Shown piece by piece: positions 45,560-58,084 of a stretch of DNA of 64,000 nt. The notes beneath the pieces are model-generated. The model saw only the letters and a program-made list of their open reading frames with translations, had not been told where the DNA came from and made no database searches. The translations under genes and the position numbers were made by a program. Position 1 is the first letter of the stretch. Each line of letters opens with the position of its first letter. The DNA is from Actinospica robiniae DSM 44927 (GTDB taxonomy: Bacteria > Actinomycetota > Actinomycetes > Streptomycetales > Catenulisporaceae): assembly GCF_000504285.1 (NCBI RefSeq), contig NZ_KI632511.1:1919372-1983371 (forward strand), read 5' to 3'.

Positions 45560-46555
45560 ATGGCGCAGATAGACGCACCACAGGCCTGGGGGAAGGCCGT
45601 GGCCGAGGAGATGACAGTGCAGGCCGAGGTGGCCGCCCGCTTCACCTGGCGCTACGACGGCCGGGACGGACGGCTGACGGCGATGTACGAGAAGGCCAAG
45701 AGCGCGCAGTGGAACGCGTCCGCCGACATCGAGTGGGCGAACGTGCCGGAGTTCGGCTCGCCGCTGCCGGACCAGGGCGCGCTGCCCGGAGTGCCGCTGC
45801 GCGGCCGGGCGGGCTCGCCGGTGCCGGCCCACCTGTGGGAGCGGTTCCGCTGGGAGTACCACGCGTGGATGACCAGCCAGTTCCTGCACGGAGAGCAGGG
45901 GGCGCTGCTGGCGACCTCGCGCATCGTGGAGACCGTGCCGGATCTGGAGGCCAAGCTCTTCGCGGCGACTCAGGTGGCTGACGAGGCCAGGCATGTCGAG
46001 GCGTACGCCACCTATCTCGACCGGCTCGGCGCGGCCTACCCGATCGATCCGCCGTTGCGCACAATGCTCGCGCACATCATCGGGACGGACGCGTGGGACC
46101 TGACCTTCCTCGGCATGCAGGTCATCGTCGAGGGGATCGCGCTGGCGATGTTCCGGCTGGGCAACGCCACGTCCTTCGATCCGGTCATCCGCCGGATCAC
46201 CGAACTGGTCGCGCGGGACGAGTCGCGCCACGTCGCCTTCGGCGTGCTCGCGTTGGAGGGCCTGTATCCCGAGCTGACCAGCCGCGAGCTGGCCGAGCGG
46301 GAGGAGTTCGTCAAGGAGTCCGCGCTGTTGATGGCGCGGCGCTTCGGAATGGACGAGGTCTGGGAGCGGCTCGGCGTCGACGTGGCCGAAGGAGTGCGCT
46401 TCACCACCACGGACCCGATCATGGTCGATTTCCGGCGGCTGATGTTCACGAGGGTCACCGCCTGCCTGGTCCGCGTCGGTCTCTTCACCGACAGCGTGCG
46501 GGCGCATCTGGAGCAGCTGTCCCTGGTGCGCCCCAGTTCGGCGGCGCATCGATGA
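45560..46555 (+). CDS. ferritin-like diiron oxygenase
   Basis: The 331-aa protein has a four-helix diiron site: Glu112 (HGEQGAL), Glu142 and His145 (DEARH), Glu191 (VEGIAL), Glu221 and His224 (DESRH). The two halves have the same 30-residue spacing, as in R2-like and acyl-ACP-desaturase-like enzymes. The extra His that AurF places four residues before its last ExxH is absent, so a plain AurF N-oxygenase is less likely. It probably hydroxylates, desaturates or N-oxidises a carrier-bound or free acyl substrate. The GGAGGGG before the start is strong. Its stop overlaps the next ATG. Confidence 0.82.
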   Translation: MAQIDAPQAWGKAVAEEMTVQAEVAARFTWRYDGRDGRLTAMYEKAKSAQWNASADIEWANVPEFGSPLPDQGALPGVPLRGRAGSPVPAHLWERFRWEYHAWMTSQFLHGEQGALLATSRIVETVPDLEAKLFAATQVADEARHVEAYATYLDRLGAAYPIDPPLRTMLAHIIGTDAWDLTFLGMQVIVEGIALAMFRLGNATSFDPVIRRITELVARDESRHVAFGVLALEGLYPELTSRELAEREEFVKESALLMARRFGMDEVWERLGVDVAEGVRFTTTDPIMVDFRRLMFTRVTACLVRVGLFTDSVRAHLEQLSLVRPSSAAHR

Positions 46556-48147
46556 GCCCTGAATTGCGGCTGTTGGACCGGTCACCGACGGGCTGGCTCC
46601 ACGAGCCGGACGACGAGCGCGGCCTGCACGCCACCTCGCCCGATTCAGACCGCTGGGAGTTCACCTCCTACCGCCGGCTGGCCGAGCTCGCGCAGGATGC
46701 CGCCGCCACGCTGGCCGGACGCGGCGTCGGGGCGGGTGACAGGGTTCTGATCGTTGTCTCCGACCCGGTGCGGTTCGCAGCGCAGTACTTCGGCACGATC
46801 CTGCTCGGGGCGAGCCCCGCTCCTGCGGCGCCGCCACCGGCGTTCACGCGGCCCGCGGCGTACGCCCAGCATATCAATGCTCTGATCGAGCTGGTCGGCG
46901 CCGCGGCGGTGACAGCCGATCCCGAGGTCGAGCCCTTCCTTGCCCAACACGCCACCCAACCCGTCCGGCAGCCCGCGGACGAGCAGCCCGACCTGATCCA
47001 GTTCAGCTCCGGGTCCACCGGCGCGCAGCGCGCAGTGCTGCTCGGCCCGGATGCGCTGTGGGCGAACGTGACCGCGCTGGTCCACTGGCTGAAGGTCGAG
47101 CCGGAGGACGCCTTCGGCAGCTGGCTGCCGCTCTACCACGACATGGGCCTGGTCGGCATGCTGCTCGGGCCGATGACAGTAGGCTGCGACATCTGGCTGA
47201 TGCGGCCACACGAGTTCGTCCGCTCCCCCGCGAGCTGGGTCCGGCTGCTGGCCGAGCAGCGCTGCGCCATCACGGCGATCCCGCCGTTCGGGCTCTCGCA
47301 CGTCCGGCGGCGGATCCGCGACCTCGACCTCGGCGGGGCCGATCTGTCGAACCTGCGGGCGGTCATCGTCGGGGCGGAGCGGATCGACGCCGCCACGGCC
47401 CGCGGCTTCAGCGAACTCCTGACTCCACACGGCTTGCGCGAGACGGCGGTGCTGCCCGCGTACGGCATGGCCGAGGCGACGCTCGCGGTGACGGGCACAC
47501 CGCTCGGCTCGGCCTGGCGCACTGCGGCCGACGGTACGGTCTCCTGCGGCCGCCCGCTCGAGAGTGTCGGCGTGTGCGTACTCGATGAGGACGGTCTGCC
47601 GGTGCCGGACGGCGCGGTAGGTGAGATCCACGTCTCAGGGCCCTCATTGGCGCGGGCGCGACTGTCCAGAGGCGAATCCGGGATGGGGGAGATCGGGCCT
47701 CGGCTGCGCACCGGTGACGCAGGGTTCTTCGACGGCGGGGATCTGTTCGTGCTCGGGCGCATCGGGGACGCGGTCAAGTACCTCGGCCGCTGGGTCTTCG
47801 CCGACGACGTGCAGGAGTTGGTCGCGCCCGCGCTGCCGGCGCGCCGGACGGCGGTCGCGCTGCTCGGCGCCGTGCAGGGGCGCGAGCGGGCGGTGATCGC
47901 GGTGGAGGGGGCGTTGGCCGATCAGGAGGCCGAGGCCGTCGGCCGGGCGGTCGCCGGTCCGCTGCCGTGGCTGGACCTGCAGGTCGCGCGGGTCGGATCC
48001 GGCTGGATCGAGCGCACCACCAGCGGCAAGCCGCGCCGCCGGGTCATGTGGGCCAAGACGCTGGCGGACGGGTTCGAGCACACCGTGCTTTATCACGCCG
48101 AAGGAACGGGCCGGCCCGAATCGGGCCGACATGGGGAAGGAGACTGA
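46552..48147 (+). CDS. fatty acyl-AMP ligase (FAAL-type)
   Basis: The 531-aa adenylating enzyme activates a carboxylic acid as its AMP ester and passes it to a carrier protein. It has FSSGSTGAQRAVLLGPDALW (P-loop-like motif, with FSSGSTG in place of YTSGSTG), SWLPLYHDMGLVGMLLGPMT (a FAAL hallmark), PAYGMAEATLAV and RTGDAGFFDGGDLFVLGR. The acid is unknown, perhaps a fatty or beta-amino acid. The ATG overlaps the diiron gene stop (ATGA), and its stop touches the start of the carrier gene (TGATG), so the genes are translated in step. Confidence 0.87.
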   Translation: MSPELRLLDRSPTGWLHEPDDERGLHATSPDSDRWEFTSYRRLAELAQDAAATLAGRGVGAGDRVLIVVSDPVRFAAQYFGTILLGASPAPAAPPPAFTRPAAYAQHINALIELVGAAAVTADPEVEPFLAQHATQPVRQPADEQPDLIQFSSGSTGAQRAVLLGPDALWANVTALVHWLKVEPEDAFGSWLPLYHDMGLVGMLLGPMTVGCDIWLMRPHEFVRSPASWVRLLAEQRCAITAIPPFGLSHVRRRIRDLDLGGADLSNLRAVIVGAERIDAATARGFSELLTPHGLRETAVLPAYGMAEATLAVTGTPLGSAWRTAADGTVSCGRPLESVGVCVLDEDGLPVPDGAVGEIHVSGPSLARARLSRGESGMGEIGPRLRTGDAGFFDGGDLFVLGRIGDAVKYLGRWVFADDVQELVAPALPARRTAVALLGAVQGRERAVIAVEGALADQEAEAVGRAVAGPLPWLDLQVARVGSGWIERTTSGKPRRRVMWAKTLADGFEHTVLYHAEGTGRPESGRHGEGD

Positions 48148-48485
48148 TGCAGGAGCAAGGAGCCGTCGGAGCGCTGTCCGAGGCGGAGTTGACGTTCGTC
48201 CGCGCCACCCTCGAACGCGTGGTGGCGCGGCTGGCCCCCGGCTCGCCGGAGAGGGTCGAGCCCTCCCAATCGCTGATCGACGAGCTGGGGTTCGACTCGT
48301 TCCGGCTGGTGGAGCTGGCGGTGCGGCTGGAAGAGCTCTTCGATGTGGAGTTCATGACCTTCGAGGCCGCCTCGCTGATCGGCACGGTGGAGGATCTCGG
48401 TGGCTTCGTGGTGCGCCGGATCGCCGAGGCGGCCGCCGTGGTGCCGAGCCCGGCGCAGGTGGAGCAGATGCTGAGGACGCTGTGA
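48147..48485 (+). CDS. acyl carrier protein
   Basis: The 112-residue protein carries the phosphopantetheine Ser51 in LIDELGFDSFRLVELAVRLE. The attachment motif LGFDS is standard. It is longer than a bare carrier domain because of about 12 extra residues at the front and a helical tail of about 20. It lies between the FAAL and a second AMP ligase with overlaps at both ends (TGATG, GTGA), so it is the likely partner of one or both. Confidence 0.88.
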   Translation: MQEQGAVGALSEAELTFVRATLERVVARLAPGSPERVEPSQSLIDELGFDSFRLVELAVRLEELFDVEFMTFEAASLIGTVEDLGGFVVRRIAEAAAVVPSPAQVEQMLRTL

Positions 48486-49948
48486 GCGGGGACGCGGCAC
48501 CAGGCGTGCCCGCCGTGTGCGCCCGGATCCGCGAGCTCGCCCTCACGGATCCGGACCGGCCGGCCTTGACCACCCGGGTGGACGGCCAGTGGCGCACGCT
48601 GACGTTCGCTCAGCTGTGCCGGCGCGTGGCCGGTGTCGCGAGTGCGGCGGCACAGGCCGGAGCGCGGCCGGGCATGCGCACGTGGGTGGCTCTGCCGAAC
48701 GGCGAGCGCTTCTACGTCGCTGTGCTGGCCTCCTGGTGGCTCGGCTGCACTCCCGTCATCGTGCCGCCGGAGGCCACGGCGGACGAGCTGGAGACTCTGC
48801 TGAAAGGCTTGGTCCAGCACACCGATGAGGAGATCCTGCCTGTCGCGGAGCTGATCGATGGCGCCCTGGACTGCGCCCCGGACAGCGCGGAATCGGACTT
48901 GCCGGAGCCGGCACCCGAGCCGACCACGGCGTGGTACCTGCCCTCCGGCGGGACTACGGGCCTGCCGCAGCTTCAGGCGGTCAAGCGACGGCCCGCCGAC
49001 CTGTTCGAGGTCATCACGGCGGTGATGTGGACGGCGAAGTGGCAGATCGACGCCGTGCAGCTCGTGCTCGGTCCGCTCTCCCACGCGGCGCCGTTGACCA
49101 CGAGCCTGGCCGGTCTCGCGCGCGGAGCGCATCTGTTGGTGCCGACCCGCATCGCCCCGACCGAACTACTGGAGGCGATGCGTCTGTTCCCGCCCACCTG
49201 GTGCCAGCTCACCCCGCATCAGATGGCGATGCTCGACACGGACGGGCCGCTCGGTCAGGCGCTGTGCGCGCGCCTGACCGGGATCCTGCACACGGCGGCA
49301 CCGTGCCCGGAGGGGCTCAAGCTCAGTTGGATCGCGCGGCTCGGCGGCGACCGGGTCTTCGAGCTCTACAGCGCCTCGCAGATGGTGGGCCTGGCCGTGT
49401 GCGACGGCGATGAGTGGCTCGAGCGGCGCGGTACGGTCGGGCGGCCTTGGGGCGATGTGCTGATCGCGGACGAATCGGGTGCCGCGGTGCCCACGGGCAA
49501 GGTCGGCGAGATCTACTTCCGCAATGAGCTGATGCTCTCCGCGCCACCCGAGGACGTGGCGCACCTGCGCTCCCTCCCGGACGGCCACTTCAGCGTCGGG
49601 GACGTGGGCCGTCTCGACGAGGACGGCTACCTCTACCTCACCGACCGCGTGGACGACGTGTTCAAGGTCGGCGGCGCGCAGGTGAGCGCCCGCGAGATCG
49701 AGCAGCGGCTGCTGACGCATCCCGGCGTGGCCGAGGCAGTCGTGGTGGGCCGCCCCGACGCGGCGATGGGACGGATCGCTTACGCGGTCGTCGTCCCGGC
49801 CGACCCGGGGCGCCCGCCGGCTGAGGCCGAGCTGATCGCGCACTGCCGCGCCGCGCTGGCGCCCTACAAGGTGCCACGCGGCATTGAAACGGTCGACGCG
49901 CTCAGCCGTTCCCGGGCGGACAAAGTCGAGCGCCACCGATACCGATAA
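48482..49948 (+). CDS. AMP-dependent acid ligase
   Basis: The 488-residue enzyme belongs to the acyl-CoA synthetase/adenylation superfamily. It has LPSGGTTGLPQLQAVKR (a variant A3 loop), YSASQMVGLAVCDGDE in place of the usual YGxTE, the hinge and A8 region DEDGYLYLTDRVDDVFKVGG, and the catalytic Lys in RSRADKVERHRYR near the end. A GTG start overlaps the ACP stop. It may load the same carrier with another acid, or make a CoA ester. It is the last gene of the operon; an operator and the methyltransferase follow. Confidence 0.82.
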   Translation: MSGDAAPGVPAVCARIRELALTDPDRPALTTRVDGQWRTLTFAQLCRRVAGVASAAAQAGARPGMRTWVALPNGERFYVAVLASWWLGCTPVIVPPEATADELETLLKGLVQHTDEEILPVAELIDGALDCAPDSAESDLPEPAPEPTTAWYLPSGGTTGLPQLQAVKRRPADLFEVITAVMWTAKWQIDAVQLVLGPLSHAAPLTTSLAGLARGAHLLVPTRIAPTELLEAMRLFPPTWCQLTPHQMAMLDTDGPLGQALCARLTGILHTAAPCPEGLKLSWIARLGGDRVFELYSASQMVGLAVCDGDEWLERRGTVGRPWGDVLIADESGAAVPTGKVGEIYFRNELMLSAPPEDVAHLRSLPDGHFSVGDVGRLDEDGYLYLTDRVDDVFKVGGAQVSAREIEQRLLTHPGVAEAVVVGRPDAAMGRIAYAVVVPADPGRPPAEAELIAHCRAALAPYKVPRGIETVDALSRSRADKVERHRYR

Positions 49949-49963
49949 ACCCCGATCGAGGCA

Positions 49964-49977
49964 TCGAAGCGCTTCGA
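49964..49977. promoter_or_regulatory. cluster operator before O-methyltransferase
   Basis: TCGAAGCGCTTCGA is perfect here, 25 bp before the methyltransferase start, so that gene can be transcribed separately from the operon upstream and still stay in the regulon. Confidence 0.8.
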
Positions 49978-50002
49978 CGAATTCTTCGACAGGAGTTCCT
50001 CC

Positions 50003-50659
50003 ATGGCCGTCTACACTCTCTCCCCCGCACCCGCTCGCCTCGAGCTGGTGGTCAAGCATATGTTCAACCACGTGATGCAGGCCGAGGCCGGCATCTATGA
50101 AGGCGGCGCCAGCCTGGCCCAGATCGAGCATCTACGGGACGTGGCCCGCCGCAGCGGATCCACCTGGATCGCCGAGATCGGATTCAACGTGGGCTACTCC
50201 ACCATCGGGTTCCTGGAGAGCTCACCCGAGGCGAGAGTGGTCTCCTTCGAGCTCGATCTGCGCCCGTGCGTGAAACTGGCCAAGGAGTTCATCGACGAGC
50301 GCTACCCCGGGCGGCACGAGCTCGTGGTCGGCGACTCGCAGGTGACCGTGCCCGAGTTCGCCGAGGCCTGCCGGGCCGGGTCGCAGGGCTTCGATCTGGT
50401 CTTCATCGACGGCAGCCACATGTACGACGTCGCCGCCAACGACATCCGCAACAGCGCGCGGATCGCCGCGCAGCAGGCCACGGTCGTGGTCGACGACCTG
50501 ACGCCGTGGTACCTGTGGGGCGCGGGGCCGACCCGGGCCTGGCAGGAGGCGGTGGACTCCGAACGGATCGAAGCGCTCGAGTACGTGGTGGACGGCCGGA
50601 TCGTGGACCGGATCGAAGGGCCGGCGGACCGTGCGTGGGCCGTCGGGCGTTTCCGCTGA
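50003..50659 (+). CDS. class I SAM-dependent O-methyltransferase
   Basis: The 218-residue enzyme resembles the catechol-type/CmcI-like O-methyltransferases: IAEIGFNVGYSTIGFLESSP (motif I with the SAM Gly-rich loop), VVSFELDLRPC and DLVFIDGSHMYDVAANDIRN (metal-binding Asp and His), then VVVDDLTPW. It would methylate a hydroxyl group of the cluster product or an intermediate. The ATG has AGGAG upstream. Its own operator lies just ahead. Element B begins 13 bp after its stop. Confidence 0.87.
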   Translation: MAVYTLSPAPARLELVVKHMFNHVMQAEAGIYEGGASLAQIEHLRDVARRSGSTWIAEIGFNVGYSTIGFLESSPEARVVSFELDLRPCVKLAKEFIDERYPGRHELVVGDSQVTVPEFAEACRAGSQGFDLVFIDGSHMYDVAANDIRNSARIAAQQATVVVDDLTPWYLWGAGPTRAWQEAVDSERIEALEYVVDGRIVDRIEGPADRAWAVGRFR

Positions 50660-51422: not shown

Positions 51423-53210
51423 GGACTCTGCTGGCGAAGTCGTGGTCTGATTTTGTGGCAGGCTGGGTGGTCGTGTCGGCTGGGTGATTGAGGGGCTTGT
51501 GGTGTTTCGTCCTGTGCGGGCTGGTGGGGTTCCGGCGGCGACGGCCGCGTTGGCGTGGGCGGTGCATCCGAAGGGCACGGGCGAGATGCGGGTGCGTGAT
51601 GCGCTCGGGCCGTTGTTCGCCGATGAGGATTTCGAGCACGAGCGGTTCGCCGGGATGTTTGCGGCGCTCGGCCGGCCCGCGCTTTCGCCGGGGTTGCTGG
51701 CGATGGTCACGGTGTTGCAGTTCCTGCACAACCTCTCGGACCGGGAGGCGGTGGTGGCGATGGCGGACCGGATCTCGTGGAAGTACGCGCTGGGCCTGGA
51801 TGTGGCTGAGACCGGGTTCGACGCGTCGGTGCTGGCCGAGTTCCGGGCCCGGCTGGCCGAGCCGGGGCGCGCGGACGCGCTGCTCGATACCGTGCTGGAC
51901 AAGCTCAAGGCGGCCGGGCTGGTGCGCGCGGGCGGGCGGGCGCGTACGGACTCGACGCATGTGCTCGCGGCGGTGCGCTCGCTGGGCCGGGTCGAGATGC
52001 TCGGCGAGAGTGTGCGTGCGGCGCTCGAGGAGATCGCGCGGGTCGCTCCGGAGCGGGTCGTGCCGCTGCTGGCGCCGGGGTGGGAGGAGCGGTACGGGCG
52101 CAAGGTCGAGACCTCCCGGCTGATCGGGCGCGGGCGGGGCAAGGCCACGATGGAGGAGTTGGCCGGGCGGTTCGGCGCGGACGGCTCGCTGCTGCTCGAG
52201 ACGCTTAAGGCGGACCCCACGGCCGGGTGGGTCCTTAGGCTGCCGCAGGTACGGCTGCTCGCCCAGGTCTGGGAGCAGCACTTCGAGCGGAGTGAGGGCG
52301 GCGGATGGGTGCTCAAAGCCGTCACCGACCTGCCGCCCGCGGCCGAGTTGCCGATCTCTCCGTACGACCCGGATGCCCGCTACGCGGTCAAACGCGCGAG
52401 CGGGTGGGAGGGAGGCAAGGTCCACCTGACCGAGTCCTGCGACGAGGATCTCCCGCACCTGGTCACGGATGTCGCCACGAGCGCGGCGACCGTGCAGGAT
52501 TCCGCGCAGACAACTGATATCCAGGAACGGCTCCTGGCGCGCGGGCTGGGCCCGGGCGTGCATGTGATGGACGCCGGGTATCCCACCGCCGCGAACCTCA
52601 TCGCCGCGGCCGGCCACGGCATCACCCTGATCGCGCCGGTCACCGTCTCGAGCGGGCGGGGCGCGAAGACCGGGACCTTCAGCCCGGCGAGTTCGAGATC
52701 GACTGGGACACCGGGCGCGCCCGCTGCCCGGGCGAGAAGGTGAGCAACCCGATGCGCGGGCAGAAGAACGGGCTGGTCGCCTTCAGCTTCTCCCGCCGCG
52801 ACTGCACACCCTGCCCGCTACGCACCGCCTGTCTGAGCGCGCCGGCCCCTCGGCCACGCGTGCTGGTCGTTCACCCCCGCGAGCCCTACGAGGCCCGCAT
52901 GAACGCGATCCGCACCCAGCACACCCCAGAATGGCAGAAGGTTTATAACCAGCGCGCCGGTATCGAGGGCACCATCTCCCAGGCCGTACGCATCAGCGAT
53001 CTACGCCACTCCCGCTACCGCGGGCTCCCCAAAAACCACCTCCAAAACGTCCTGACCGGCATCGCGATCAACATCAGACGCCTCGGCGCGCACTACGCGC
53101 CCACCCAGACCAAACCCCGCCGACCCACCCGTATACAAGCCCTCTACGACACCCACCACATCGGCAAACCCGCCTAACCAAACCACCCCCGACTTCGCCA
53201 GCAGAGTCCC
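51423..53210. mobile_element. IS1182-family insertion sequence
   Basis: The 20-bp ends GGACTCTGCTGGCGAAGTCG (51423-51442) and its complement (53190-53209) are perfect inverted repeats around one transposase. CCGA lies directly to the left (51419-51422) and to the right (53211-53214). Element A has the uninterrupted site, GCCGCACCCCGAGGGG, at about 6171-6186, so this is a 4-bp target duplication in element B. Length is 1.79 kb, typical for this family. Confidence 0.88.
51484..53177 (+). pseudogene. IS1182-family transposase, frameshifted
   Basis: The first frame (51484-52743) has LLAMVTVLQFLHNLSDREAV, WKYALGLDVAETGFDASVLA, ARTDSTHVLAAVRSL (first catalytic Asp), SPYDPDARYAVKR, KVHLTESCDEDLPHLVTDVA and VMDAGYPTAANLIAAAGHG. 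The family pattern then continues in another frame: GEFEIDWDTGRARCPGEK, SRRDCTPCPLRTACLSAP, RAGIEGTISQAVRISDLRHS (catalytic Glu) and LPKNHLQNVLTGIAINIRRL, to 53177. The break lies close to 52,680. A programmed frameshift is possible, but a one-base indel is simpler, so this copy is probably inactive. The listed GTG at 52740 is inside the second frame and not a true start. Confidence 0.87.
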
Positions 53211-54219: not shown

Positions 54220-54504
54220 TCAGCCGTCCGCGTCCGCGCGCCGGCGCACCGTCCGCCAGAGATAGCCGGCTGTGGAGAACAGGTCGGGGTCGAGCAGTTC
54301 CTCGTCGAGGACGATTCCGAACAGGTCCTCGATTCCCCCGATCAGCGCCACCGCGCCGACGGAGTCCAGGCCCGAGTCCAGCAGGCGGCTCTCGGCCGTC
54401 ACCGCCTGCTCGGCCGGCAGATCGGGCAGCGCCTCGCGCACCAGCGCGGCGAAGGCGTCGGGCCATTCCTCCGCACGGGCCGATTCCGTCCGCGATTCGG
54501 TCAT
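54220..54504 (-). CDS. acyl/peptidyl carrier protein
   Basis: The 94-residue protein has the phosphopantetheine Ser48 in LLDSGLDSVGAVALIGGIED, followed by LFGIVLDEELLDPDLFSTAG. The ATG overlaps the stop of the adenylation gene (ATGA), so it is the natural partner that receives the activated amino acid. It is a free-standing carrier, not a domain. Element B starts 40 bp after its stop. Confidence 0.87.
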   Translation of the reverse strand: MTESRTESARAEEWPDAFAALVREALPDLPAEQAVTAESRLLDSGLDSVGAVALIGGIEDLFGIVLDEELLDPDLFSTAGYLWRTVRRRADADG

Positions 54505-56099
54505 CTGCGCTCCCCGTTCTCTGGCGCGGTGGCGGGCTCGGGCTTCCCGAGCGTGTCCGCGACCGCGCGCCGGTCGATCTTGCCACTCTGGTTGGTCGGC
54601 AGCTTCGGCACGAACTTCCAGGTCCGCGGCAGCATGTAGGGCGGCAGTCGCTGGGCGAGGGCGCCGCGCAGGGCAGCCGAGGTCGGCTGGAAGCCGGGCG
54701 CCGGCACGCAGACCGCGGCGATCTCGCACTGCCCCGACCGCTCGTCCGGCACCGCGATGACAGCGCATTGTTCGACCTCGGGCAGTGCGCTCAGCGCCAC
54801 CTCGATGTCGTCGAGCTCGATCCGGTGGCCGCGCGACTTGATCTGTCGATCCTGCCTGCCGTGGAAATGGAAGAGCCCTGCCGCGTCGACGCTCGCGAGG
54901 TCGCCGGTGCGGTACCAGCGCTGCTCCGATCCGGGAGGCGACTCGTGGTAGGCCTCTGCGGTGCGCTGCGGGTCGCGCCAGTAGCCCGGGCCGAGTCCGG
55001 CGCCGCCGATGTACAGGTCGCCGATCGTCCCGGCCGGCACCGGCGCGCCGTCCGGCCCGCACACGCGCAGCTGCTCACCGGGCACCGGCAGACCGAGCGG
55101 CACGGCGGCGTCCTCGGGCCACGGCCGGTTCTCGATCTCGTAGTACGAGCTGGCGATGGTCGCTTCGGTCGGCCCGTACAGGTTCGCCATCCGCACGTGC
55201 GGCAACCGCTCGGCGAAATAGCGCACGCCGGACGCGGGGAAGACCTCTCCGCACCAGATCAGGCGTCTGAGGTCAGGCAGCTCGACCCGCGAGAGCACGT
55301 CGCGGCCCGCCAGGGAGGTCAGGACGCTGGGCACCGAGAACCACTGCGTCAGCCGCGCATCGCGGATGAAGGCGGCTATGCGTTCAGGCAGTAGGTTGAC
55401 ATGGTCGGGTACGAGGTGCAGCTCGGCGCCGGCGGTCAGGGCGCCGAAGACATCCCAGACGGACAGGTCGAAGTGCAGCGGCGAGTGGCCGGACACACGG
55501 TCGTCCGGGCCGAGGCCGAAGTGCTCGTTCGCCCAGGTCACGAAGTGTGCGACGTTGGCGTGGCCGATCGCAACACCCTTCGGCAGGCCGGTGGAGCCGG
55601 AGGTGAACAGTAGGTACGCCAGGCCGTTCGGGGCACCGGGCGAGTCGGGGGCGCCGTCCGCGGGCACAGGCGCGGCGAGCGCGTCGGCGAGGTCGAGCAC
55701 GCCGGGTCGCTCGTGCGGTTCCAGTTCCTTGAGACAGTCCGCGGCCAGCTGCGCACGGTCCGTCCGGGCGAGCAGGATGCTCGGCTCGGCGGTGCGCACG
55801 ACCTGCGCCAGCCGGGCGGGCGGGCTCGCCGGATCGAGCGGCACGTAGACGCAGCCGGCCCGCAGCACGCCCAGAATCGCCGCCACGGTGTCGGCGGACT
55901 TGGGAATCAGCAGGCAGATCCGGTCGCCCGGCCGCGCGCCCGCGGCCACCAGCGCCACCGCCACGCGCCCGCTCGCCTCGTCCAGCTCCCCGTAGCTGAG
56001 CGAGCCTTCGGCATCGACCACCGCCCGCGCGGAAGGATCGCGCCGCGCCTGTTCCCGGACCCGCTGGTGCACCGGTCCGTACCCCGTTCGTTGCGACAC
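54501..56099 (-). CDS. stand-alone NRPS adenylation enzyme
   Basis: The 532-aa enzyme has the full adenylation set: A3 YLLFTSGSTGLPKGVAIGH, A4 HFDLSVWDVFGALTAGAE, A5 NLYGPTEATIASSYYE, A7 YRTGDLASVD, A8 GRQDRQIKSRGHRIELDDIE, and the catalytic Lys in NQSGKIDRRAV. By eye the ten specificity positions read DLWSICLIAK; no confident amino acid follows. The GTG at 56099 has GGGAG 7 bp ahead, though the frame is open to 56174. It is coupled to the carrier at 54220, so the pair loads one amino acid in trans. It is divergent from the condensation protein with an operator between. Confidence 0.88.
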   Translation of the reverse strand: MSQRTGYGPVHQRVREQARRDPSARAVVDAEGSLSYGELDEASGRVAVALVAAGARPGDRICLLIPKSADTVAAILGVLRAGCVYVPLDPASPPARLAQVVRTAEPSILLARTDRAQLAADCLKELEPHERPGVLDLADALAAPVPADGAPDSPGAPNGLAYLLFTSGSTGLPKGVAIGHANVAHFVTWANEHFGLGPDDRVSGHSPLHFDLSVWDVFGALTAGAELHLVPDHVNLLPERIAAFIRDARLTQWFSVPSVLTSLAGRDVLSRVELPDLRRLIWCGEVFPASGVRYFAERLPHVRMANLYGPTEATIASSYYEIENRPWPEDAAVPLGLPVPGEQLRVCGPDGAPVPAGTIGDLYIGGAGLGPGYWRDPQRTAEAYHESPPGSEQRWYRTGDLASVDAAGLFHFHGRQDRQIKSRGHRIELDDIEVALSALPEVEQCAVIAVPDERSGQCEIAAVCVPAPGFQPTSAALRGALAQRLPPYMLPRTWKFVPKLPTNQSGKIDRRAVADTLGKPEPATAPENGERR

Positions 56100-56132
56100 C
56101 GTTCTCCCGCCCTGTCGGTCATAATCAGGGAA

Positions 56133-56146
56133 TCGAAGCGCTTCGA
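56133..56146. promoter_or_regulatory. cluster operator between adenylation and condensation genes
   Basis: TCGAAGCGCTTCGA is perfect here, 33 bp before the adenylation start and 81 bp before the condensation start, so a bound repressor could cover both promoters of the divergent pair. Confidence 0.82.
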
Positions 56147-56227
56147 CAAAGAATTCGAGTCGAGAGGCTTTCATCGAATCCGTGGCCTGTCAACCGGTCC
56201 GGATCACGGAACGAAAGGCGGTGGCGG

Positions 56228-58084
56228 GTGTCCGTAGAACGGCGCGGTCCGCTCGGCGGTGCGCAGGAGTACGAGTGGTGGAAGATGCAGGACCCGAAGT
56301 TGCGCTCAAGCGACACCTCCAACGTCCCGGTGCGCCTGCTGCCCCCGCGGCCAATCGACGAGGCGACGGCGCGCGCGGCCGTGCTGCGGCTGTTGGAGCG
56401 CAACGAGGCGCTGCGGACCACGATCGAGCTCGGCCCGGACAACGTGCCGAGCCAAGTCGTGCATGCCGCGGCAGCGCTGGAATTCGACTTCCTCGACGAC
56501 CCCACGCCACACGACCACCTGTACTACTGCCTCGATCGCGCGCAGGCAGAGCTCGACCCGTCAGTGTTCCCGGCCGTCACGGCGGCCGCGATCCGGCACG
56601 ACGGCGCCGTGACCGAGGTACTGCTCGTCGTAGCGCACTGCTTCGTGGACGGGCGCAGCACGACGCTGCTGGCCGCGCAGTTCGTCGATATCATCAATGG
56701 GCTGACTGGCCATGCGGACACTGACATCTCGGGACCGCAAGCCCAGGCGCAGCCACTCGACTGCCCGGACATCGAACGCGCCTCGACGACCACGTTCTGG
56801 GAACAGGCTGCGGCGATCATGCCGACGAGCATGTTCACTCCCAGCCGCGAAGGCCTGTTCGACCGCCACGGGGCCGCGTACACCACAGACCGGCTGCCGG
56901 CGCTTCTCGCCCTGGTGGCGCGACGTCGAGCAACCACTCCGGCAGTCGTCTACCTGGCGACGATCCACGCGCTCCTCGCCGCGATGTCGGGAGGCCCGAG
57001 AAGCGTGGTACGCAACCACTTCGCAGGCCGCACGAAGGAGCAGAACGACGTAGTCGGCTGCTTCCACCGCATTCTGCCGATCGTCGTCGACGTCGAAGAC
57101 CGACCCGATCTCGCCACGCTGATCGGCCGCGTGGCCGGACAGTCCCTGCGCGCCCATGCCCGGGCGCAGACCGGATTCCTCCAGCTGCGCGAGATCTTGG
57201 CCCTCGAGGAGCGCAGCCGCGGCGCGCTCTTCGCCGAGGGCGCCACGGTGAACTTCGCCTTCGACGACGCGTACGCACAGGCCGCCAAGGCCCCGGAAGA
57301 AGAGCTCGTCACCGCCATAGGTGAGTCGGCCGGTGAGCTCGAACTTCTGATGGGGCGCAACGAGACCACCGCCGACTACCGCGGCTTCGCGGGATATCTC
57401 ATGGTCCGGATCGAAGACGGCGTCGCCAAGATCCAATCCAGCTTCAACCGTTACGTCTTCACTCCACGGCAGATGCGCGCCCTGCTCACCGGTCCGGAAG
57501 AGCTCCTCTTCGCACTCCTCGACGGCGAAGTGACCTGGCCGGACGTCGAGCGTCTGGCCGGCGTCGAAGGACCCGGACGCCTGCGGCACGCCCCGACTCT
57601 GCCGTCGGAATCAGAGCCCGTACCAGCGCTGGCGACGTCGGCCGCAGCTGTCGCGGCGCTCACCACGGCGGTCGAGCAGGCCAACGCCATCGCACCTGTC
57701 GATCCGGACCGCAGCTACCTCGAGGCCGGCGGAAGACTGCTCATGGTCTCGGCCGTGCTGGCGTTTCTGCGCGAGCGGGGCCACGAGGGCCTCGGCGCGT
57801 ACGACTTCACACTGCCCGTCTCCCTGCGCACTCTCGCCGCACGCCTCGTCTCCGCCGAGTACGAGGGCTGGCTCGCGAAGATCGCAGAGCTCTGGCAGAC
57901 GGAGTTGCGCCTCGACACCGTCGGCCCGGATGACGACTTCTTCGACCTCGGCGGCGACTCGCTGACGCTCGCGGCCGTACACGGGGGCCTGATCGAGGCG
58001 ACCGGCCGCGACGTGGCGATCGTCACGCTCTTCGAGCACCCGACGCCGCGATCACTCGCGGCAAGGCTGTCGTCGCAGGCCTGA
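56228..58084 (+). CDS. condensation protein with tandem carrier domains, first one degenerate
   Basis: The 618-residue protein has a condensation domain (about 1-450). The HHxxxDG motif reads VAHCFVDGRS: His137, the catalytic second His, and Asp141-Gly142 are kept, but the first His is Ala. RNHFAGRTK and VVGCFHRILP follow, as in the domain core. Two carrier-like domains come after. In the first (about 475-540) the sequence is PVDPDRSYLEAGGRLLMVSA, where GGDS has become GGRL, so it lacks the Ser and cannot be primed. In the second (about 548-615), FFDLGGDSLTLAAVH is intact with Ser578. The GTG start at 56228 has AAAGGCGG ahead. It likely joins the amino acid loaded by the divergent pair to the acyl chain. 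Confidence 0.85.
   Translation: MSVERRGPLGGAQEYEWWKMQDPKLRSSDTSNVPVRLLPPRPIDEATARAAVLRLLERNEALRTTIELGPDNVPSQVVHAAAALEFDFLDDPTPHDHLYYCLDRAQAELDPSVFPAVTAAAIRHDGAVTEVLLVVAHCFVDGRSTTLLAAQFVDIINGLTGHADTDISGPQAQAQPLDCPDIERASTTTFWEQAAAIMPTSMFTPSREGLFDRHGAAYTTDRLPALLALVARRRATTPAVVYLATIHALLAAMSGGPRSVVRNHFAGRTKEQNDVVGCFHRILPIVVDVEDRPDLATLIGRVAGQSLRAHARAQTGFLQLREILALEERSRGALFAEGATVNFAFDDAYAQAAKAPEEELVTAIGESAGELELLMGRNETTADYRGFAGYLMVRIEDGVAKIQSSFNRYVFTPRQMRALLTGPEELLFALLDGEVTWPDVERLAGVEGPGRLRHAPTLPSESEPVPALATSAAAVAALTTAVEQANAIAPVDPDRSYLEAGGRLLMVSAVLAFLRERGHEGLGAYDFTLPVSLRTLAARLVSAEYEGWLAKIAELWQTELRLDTVGPDDDFFDLGGDSLTLAAVHGGLIEATGRDVAIVTLFEHPTPRSLAARLSSQA

Follow-up and report, generated by a model that had tools for sequence, protein, structure and literature searches.

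Split NRPS systems, and attempts to engineer them, pose the open question of how a free condensation (C) domain finds its proper free carriers. It is raised in a particular form by the gene at 56228..58084 (+) of the window, by which is meant the whole stretch of DNA analysed (64,000 nucleotides): what is a carrier-like domain without an attachment site doing between a C domain and an intact carrier? The product of 618 amino acids, read from a GTG start (gene starts here and below come from rough gene calling and may be off), consists of the C domain (56228..57532 (+), about residues 1-435, as judged from Pfam PF00668 and an AF2 model), a linker (57533..57640 (+)), a pseudo-carrier domain termed psiT (57641..57850 (+), about residues 472-541) and a live carrier fused at the C-terminus (57872..58081 (+)). 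The motifs pointed out in an earlier, sequence-only reading of this gene were all borne out. GGRL (57728..57739 (+), residues 501-504, codons GGC GGA AGA CTG) replaces the phosphopantetheine site GGDS in the first carrier-like domain, the second carrier is intact, with GGDS, Ser578 at 57959-57961 and a Pfam PP-binding match at 551-614 (53.8 bits), and the AHxxxDG motif of the C domain, AHCFVDG (56633..56653 (+), residues 136-142), retains the catalytic second His (His137) and Asp141, the first His being replaced by Ala. Condensation (27-419, 70.6 bits) and the one PP-binding match are the sole Pfam families above cut-off, and the Pfam scan of the protein gave no complete adenylation (A) domain between C and T. 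As a separate, A-less C protein by Pfam that keeps the catalytic His and Asp of HHxxxDG, it answers to the description of a stand-alone condensation enzyme. The fused live carrier, as far as such short sequences allow a ranking, is closest to two sequences of its own genome, the free carrier at 64658-64930 and an NRPS, followed by a free carrier beside locus L093.

A pattern-based scan drew on a single genome of each species and retained 80 of 134 relatives, for the most part live carriers and other C domains. Among these were three orthologues, all from Micromonospora, with 39-42% identity and matching residues 5 to 540-543. All three stop right after the first carrier-like domain and have GGRLL at the site, which speaks against a sequencing slip; this explanation, like that of a chance motif, was rejected. 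Since the orthologues end after the dead carrier, psiT is the conserved C-terminus of the protein, to which the fused live carrier has been added. Profile searches extended the family. A whole-protein profile gave matches at E<=1e-30 in 11 of 391 genomes of the same order and at E<=1e-40 in 60 of 394 genomes of the class, six of which score 477-679 bits and reach psiT, the others scoring at most 202 bits; of 198 genomes of the phylum, eight had matches at E<=1e-40, and only that from the protein's own genome included psiT. A profile of psiT itself gave matches at E<=1e-8 in 20 of the 391 order genomes and 6 of the 394 class genomes, the own genome being counted in both, and is specific within genomes: in 15 member genomes it found one match each of at least 91.9 bits, all others being at or below 30 bits. 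Two other genomes of the same genus contained no match to the window protein at E<=1e-30, but one of them did yield a relative to the psiT profile (genome G002, locus L179).

The resulting set of 27 members comprises the window protein, the three Micromonospora orthologues and 23 proteins from genomes of the same order or class, of which ten came from the order profile search, four from the class profile search and nine from the search of the order with the psiT profile. Each locus was counted once: the handles L001, L092, L104 and L168 all denote the window locus, as L103 and L173 do that of L102. Members already included are also repeated by L163-L167, L169-L172, L174-L176 and L178. The psiT domain follows the C domain in all 27 members, and at the attachment column Ser occurs in none of them, a count to be read with the reservation that Ser-bearing relatives could be under-sampled by a profile made from rows without it. 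The phosphopantetheine serine that characterizes PF00550 carriers is thus missing from psiT. His137 is kept in 26 of the 27 (exception L186) and Asp141 likewise in 26 (exception L181). These two exceptions are distant members which have kept psiT and a remnant of an A domain, described below, and to judge from the missing motif residues their C domain itself may be dead. A fused live carrier is present in the window protein alone. Of the tandem proposed in the sequence-only reading, a dead carrier in front of a live one, the dead half therefore stands as the conserved part, and the live half is an exception found in one member of 27.

The expectation of a carrier-like fold for the first domain agrees with structure prediction. 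In the AF2 model of the full protein, made from an alignment of 18 rows and no templates, the psiT block has a pLDDT of 87-94 and helices at residues 472-486, 504-516, 524-528 and 533-537; modelled alone, it reaches a pLDDT of 90 and a pTM of 0.77. The live carrier behind it attains a pLDDT of 35-58 only in the full-protein model, presumably because no other row of the alignment covers it. Foldseek searches with the psiT model returned carriers as best matches, at a modest E of 0.02 and with a TMq of 0.81 to the PCP 5u3h, and VIA-align gave a Z of 11.4 for psiT against a PCP, a value which helical bundles may reach through their common arrangement. The 50 structure matches listed are carriers or multidomain proteins holding one, as judged by title and range, with less certainty for chain 9a83_B in the VIA-align results, on which nothing hinges. 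The sequence profile of 18 psiT domains pointed in the same direction, its best match among PDB sequences being the PCP 7kw3 (E 7.8e-4), aligned in the right register with GGR-V against GGD-S; of its nine matches at E<=10, six are carriers or proteins that contain one and three are other proteins. Taken together, these predictions support a four-helix carrier fold for psiT. The best conserved positions, which include G501, G502, R503, P508, V510, L514, G518 and G521, cluster around loop 1, helix 2 and the turn between helices 2 and 3, and some are surely buried; L478, G501, V510, L514, G518 and G521 are invariant in the 18-row alignment. With the predicted fold, the profile match and the family-wide loss of the serine, the earlier suggestion of a carrier-shaped module that cannot be primed has gained support. 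An argument from charge was dropped: psiT has a mean net charge of +0.6 (n 18), and the 24 free carriers from these loci one of -9.5, but the difference was left unused because the psiT values scatter from -4 to +5, that of the window protein being -2.

Automatic annotation passes this domain over. Pfam assigned no carrier family to psiT at E<=1 in the scan of the window protein and nothing at E<=10 on the psiT stretch alone, and called no psiT in any of 12 proteins scanned (the window protein and 11 relatives, for which Condensation was the sole family listed); NCBIfam made no psiT call in two proteins scanned. Two unrelated sub-threshold Pfam matches were seen in the window protein, one of which, DUF4620 (E 0.16), touches residues 436-494. 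Since Pfam reports neither psiT nor, above its cut-off, the A-domain remnant, and NCBIfam does not report psiT, such proteins would be annotated as ordinary condensation domains, and a warning is in order that, in the proteins scanned, Pfam misses psiT altogether and the A-domain remnant above cut-off.

This remnant is a stretch of about 100 amino acids between C and psiT in 12 members (L093, L098, L099, L102, L179 and L180-L186), at the place of the linker in the window protein, which is without it. A profile of 11 such stretches, four from proteins with psiT and seven from psiT-less ones, gave 26 matches among PDB sequences at E<=10, every one an NRPS or adenylate-forming enzyme to judge by its name, with a best E of 2.5e-5 and with the matches falling at the C-terminal end of the A domain; the stretches of eight later members also match it. 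Pfam detected it in L098 only, at E 0.082, and found nothing in L093 and L099. The proteins look like a C-A-T module minus the core of the A domain and minus the carrier serine, and the C-A(relic)-psiT layout is therefore read as a module that would have lost both. Stand-alone C proteins that end in the A relic and have no carrier were also encountered (L112, L114, L115, L120, L137, L138 and L148), two of which (L137 and L148) lie elsewhere in the window's own genome.

In a tree of C domains, relic-bearing L093 groups with the relic-free window protein (92/74), both belonging to a clade that includes Micromonospora and is supported at 100/100, and relic-bearing L179 groups with L100 and L101 (100/100). 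Such close kin with and without the relic in two clades suggest that it was probably lost at least twice, psiT being retained each time. The canonical C domains of NRPS modules fall on one side of a branch (100/99; L109 was classed first as an NRPS module, then as unsure). As to a single origin of psiT, the 18 psiT proteins need two changes on a 52-row tree, where a single clade is not rejected (p-AU 0.362), and three on a 61-row tree with weak deep branches and long rows.

The coding sequence of psiT is under purifying selection in pooled pairs. Omega values were obtained by the Nei-Gojobori method for nine pairs, five independent ones being pooled, with the high-GC codon bias left in. Pooled omega is 0.41 for psiT (bootstrap 0.23-0.70; 28.5 synonymous and 28.5 nonsynonymous changes), 0.27 for C (0.22-0.33) and 0.60 for the linker (0.44-0.88), whose bootstrap range overlaps that of psiT. 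Only 2 of 2000 bootstraps of psiT reach omega 1; three of the nine pairs, among L105-L107, exceed 1, on one or two synonymous changes. Recent pseudogenisation was rejected on the basis of this selection and the family-wide loss of the serine.

Potential partners are encoded close by. Divergent from the C-psiT-T gene, a stand-alone amino-acid adenylation domain lies at 54501..56174 (-) (Pfam AMP-binding, 281.3 bits; TIGR01733, 393.8 bits at a cut-off of 317.4), next to a free carrier of 94 amino acids with the motif SGLDSVGAVA (54220..54504 (-), PP-binding 27.8 bits), which is closest to the free carriers beside other C-psiT genes, with 43% over 77 amino acids to that of L159. A second free carrier of 112 amino acids with the motif GFDSF (48147..48485 (+)) was recognized by our own carrier profile, of which it is itself one of 15 seeds chosen by motif, and a fatty acyl-AMP ligase-like adenylate-forming enzyme is encoded at 46552..48147 (+), according to Pfam (AMP-binding, in a longer frame), the NCBIfam scores being below cut-offs. 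These two genes belong to a run upstream of the A, carrier and C-psiT-T genes (45560-50659), which consists of an AurF-like oxygenase, the FAAL-like ligase, the free carrier, an acyl-CoA-ligase-like enzyme and a methyltransferase, and is separated from the free carrier and A genes by transposase fragments (51484-53177), DUF772 and DDE_Tnp_1_6, which are spread over two frames. About 6 kb past the end of the window, a fusion protein of 745 amino acids (L089:6504-8741 (+)) combines a PLP-dependent, PALP-type (cysteine-synthase) enzyme with an ATP-grasp L-amino-acid ligase; its gene adjoins a Lyase_1 gene and lies just upstream of that for an NRPS of 3,624 amino acids.

Beyond the window, the flanks of 18 loci were read, and in 17 of these our own profile and motif placed a free carrier gene within 9 kb of C-psiT, although nearby carrier genes are expected in any NRPS/PKS locus and the count stands without control loci. 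The distances in these 17 loci range from 6 bases to 6.7 kb, and in L154 a carrier-like gene lies some 9.2 kb off. In Micromonospora, a free carrier gene for 91 amino acids lies at most 6 bases from the C-psiT gene on the opposite strand, followed by an A-T gene. Most of the loci L150-L153 and L159-L162 contain a free carrier with a GLDSM motif and a free A domain, with modular PKS genes also present; a second stand-alone C protein occurs in most of them and is absent from L152, and a PLP decarboxylase of the Orn/DAP family is found in five (L150-L153 and L162). Pfam was used for the decarboxylase of L162 only, the other gene names in these loci being assigned by clustering and reading. Their layout would fit a split amino-acyl starter system. 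Directly after C-psiT, L159-L162 share in conserved order a gene for a 299-aa-type protein, which in L159, the one locus put through Pfam, gave a sub-threshold match, and an aminotransferase-V (cysteine-desulfurase-like) gene.

The reading favored here, to which an even chance may be given on the sequences and models, is that of a trans-acting C enzyme derived from a C-A-T module, with psiT as a non-primeable docking element. The C domain would work in trans, its carriers being loaded by free A domains, and psiT, being unable to carry a substrate by the usual route, would offer a carrier-shaped docking surface holding its partner, either a holo carrier loaded by a free A domain or that A domain itself, near the tunnels of the C domain, so that the carriers between which condensation takes place would come in trans. 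The window protein would draw one substrate from the live carrier added in cis and the other from a free carrier, such as that of 94 amino acids encoded next to the A domain. A positioning of partners such as free carriers, as proposed earlier, is a putative role consistent with the purifying selection, the loss of the relic while psiT was kept, the nearby free-carrier genes and the precedent of the TomB adaptor. A more specific form is put forward tentatively, at clearly less than even probability: in a class of enzymes of the actinobacterial type, a decayed A-T half-module would have become a non-catalytic docking platform. With or without the relic, psiT would serve the C domain as an adaptor built in on its acceptor side, and its carrier-shaped surface would choose and place the partner, a free holo-carrier or the free A domain, in split (type II) NRPS systems. 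It counts against docking that omega is only modestly lower in psiT than in the linker, and that related stand-alone C proteins do without psiT, at least eight stopping after C and seven after the A relic in a profile-based tally of proteins of up to 800 amino acids. The position of psiT behind the C domain and the location of its conserved residues also make partner and face uncertain.

That position bears on the main rival to docking, in which psiT would sit as an intramolecular cap in the acceptor (or donor) carrier site of its own C domain and mimic the lost carrier of the module. It might keep the enzyme closed until displaced by a loaded partner, or shape a tunnel for a small-molecule amine. 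Although psiT stands where the module's own acceptor carrier would, and its conserved positions lie in the region of loop 1, helix 2 and the turn to helix 3, the linkers between C and psiT are of variable length and poorly conserved, and the live carrier behind psiT in the window protein would also need to reach the C domain. A distant parallel is provided by OaaC, a stand-alone C domain described in the accessible part of its report as autoinhibited through occlusion of the carrier site by homodimerisation (PMC13142362). We regard a cap, in either variant, as rather unlikely.

Least favored of the three is the retention of psiT as a partnerless fossil that persists solely because the C domain needs it to fold or stay soluble, which we consider quite improbable. 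The resemblance to a decayed C-A-T module and the existence of the psiT-less relatives would fit such a remnant, but the low bootstrap count at omega 1, the loss of the neighboring relic while psiT stayed, and the identity between the window protein and the Micromonospora orthologues, which is 46-51% in psiT versus 41-43% over the whole protein, argue against it. It is scarcely credible that psiT functions as a genuine carrier with its modification at a different residue, as Ser508 of the window protein, four places behind the site, and the Ser one place after it in L181 and one before it in L186 might suggest, because the 18-row alignment contains no conserved Ser, Thr or Cys column, which makes a cryptic priming site unlikely, and Ser508 is Pro in the 17 other rows.

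If docking applies, a conserved built-in pseudo-carrier occurring in several bacterial families would be a portable selection element. No description of Ser-less carrier domains C-terminal of stand-alone C domains was found in searches of an open-access library.

Free-standing condensation enzymes that work with separately encoded carriers are known, and VibH is one of them. The presence of a psiT domain sets this family apart from VibH as well as from OaaC and SgcC5. OaaC, which works with separately encoded carriers as the window protein would, resembles the latter in being a discrete C protein with an altered motif that keeps the second His, and in the accessible part of that paper the terms 'PCP-like', 'carrier-like' and 'C-terminal extension' do not occur (PMC13142362); SgcC5 is likewise named as a stand-alone condensation enzyme in the part available of another report (PMC11186497). 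A module without a working A domain that is served by a separate A-T protein also has a parallel in SyrE [C-T-TE] and SyrB1 [A-T] and in similar A-less modules served in trans, for which the accessible text reports no Ser-less carrier (PMC8949500), whereas here the serine is absent in every member found.

The closest comparison is that with TomB of the tomaymycin NRPS, whose C domain was matched by the whole-protein profile among PDB sequences; TomB was not among the matches of the psiT profile there at E<=10, an absence that carries no weight. As far as the accessible part of the paper goes, its N-terminal PCP-like adaptor (BN) is devoid of the serine and recruits the donor PCP via an encounter complex, meeting it through residues 5, 8, 48-49 and 74-75 (PMC11186497). 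Both domains have a four-helix carrier fold, predicted in the case of psiT, both are joined to a C domain and neither can be primed, the phosphopantetheine motif being replaced by RCEHPA in TomB and by GGRL in the window protein. The TomB contacts differ from the conserved positions of psiT, and the face used may therefore differ. The TomB adaptor, N-terminal of its C domain, forms part of an elongation/termination module and binds a donor PCP (PMC11186497, accessible part), whereas psiT is C-terminal, in place of the module's own carrier, occurs in stand-alone C proteins with or without the A relic in 27 loci, and has a putative partner role. While a PCP-like adaptor as such is already known from TomB, the position behind a stand-alone C domain appears to be new, and psiT would be a second, differently placed carrier fold used as an adaptor.
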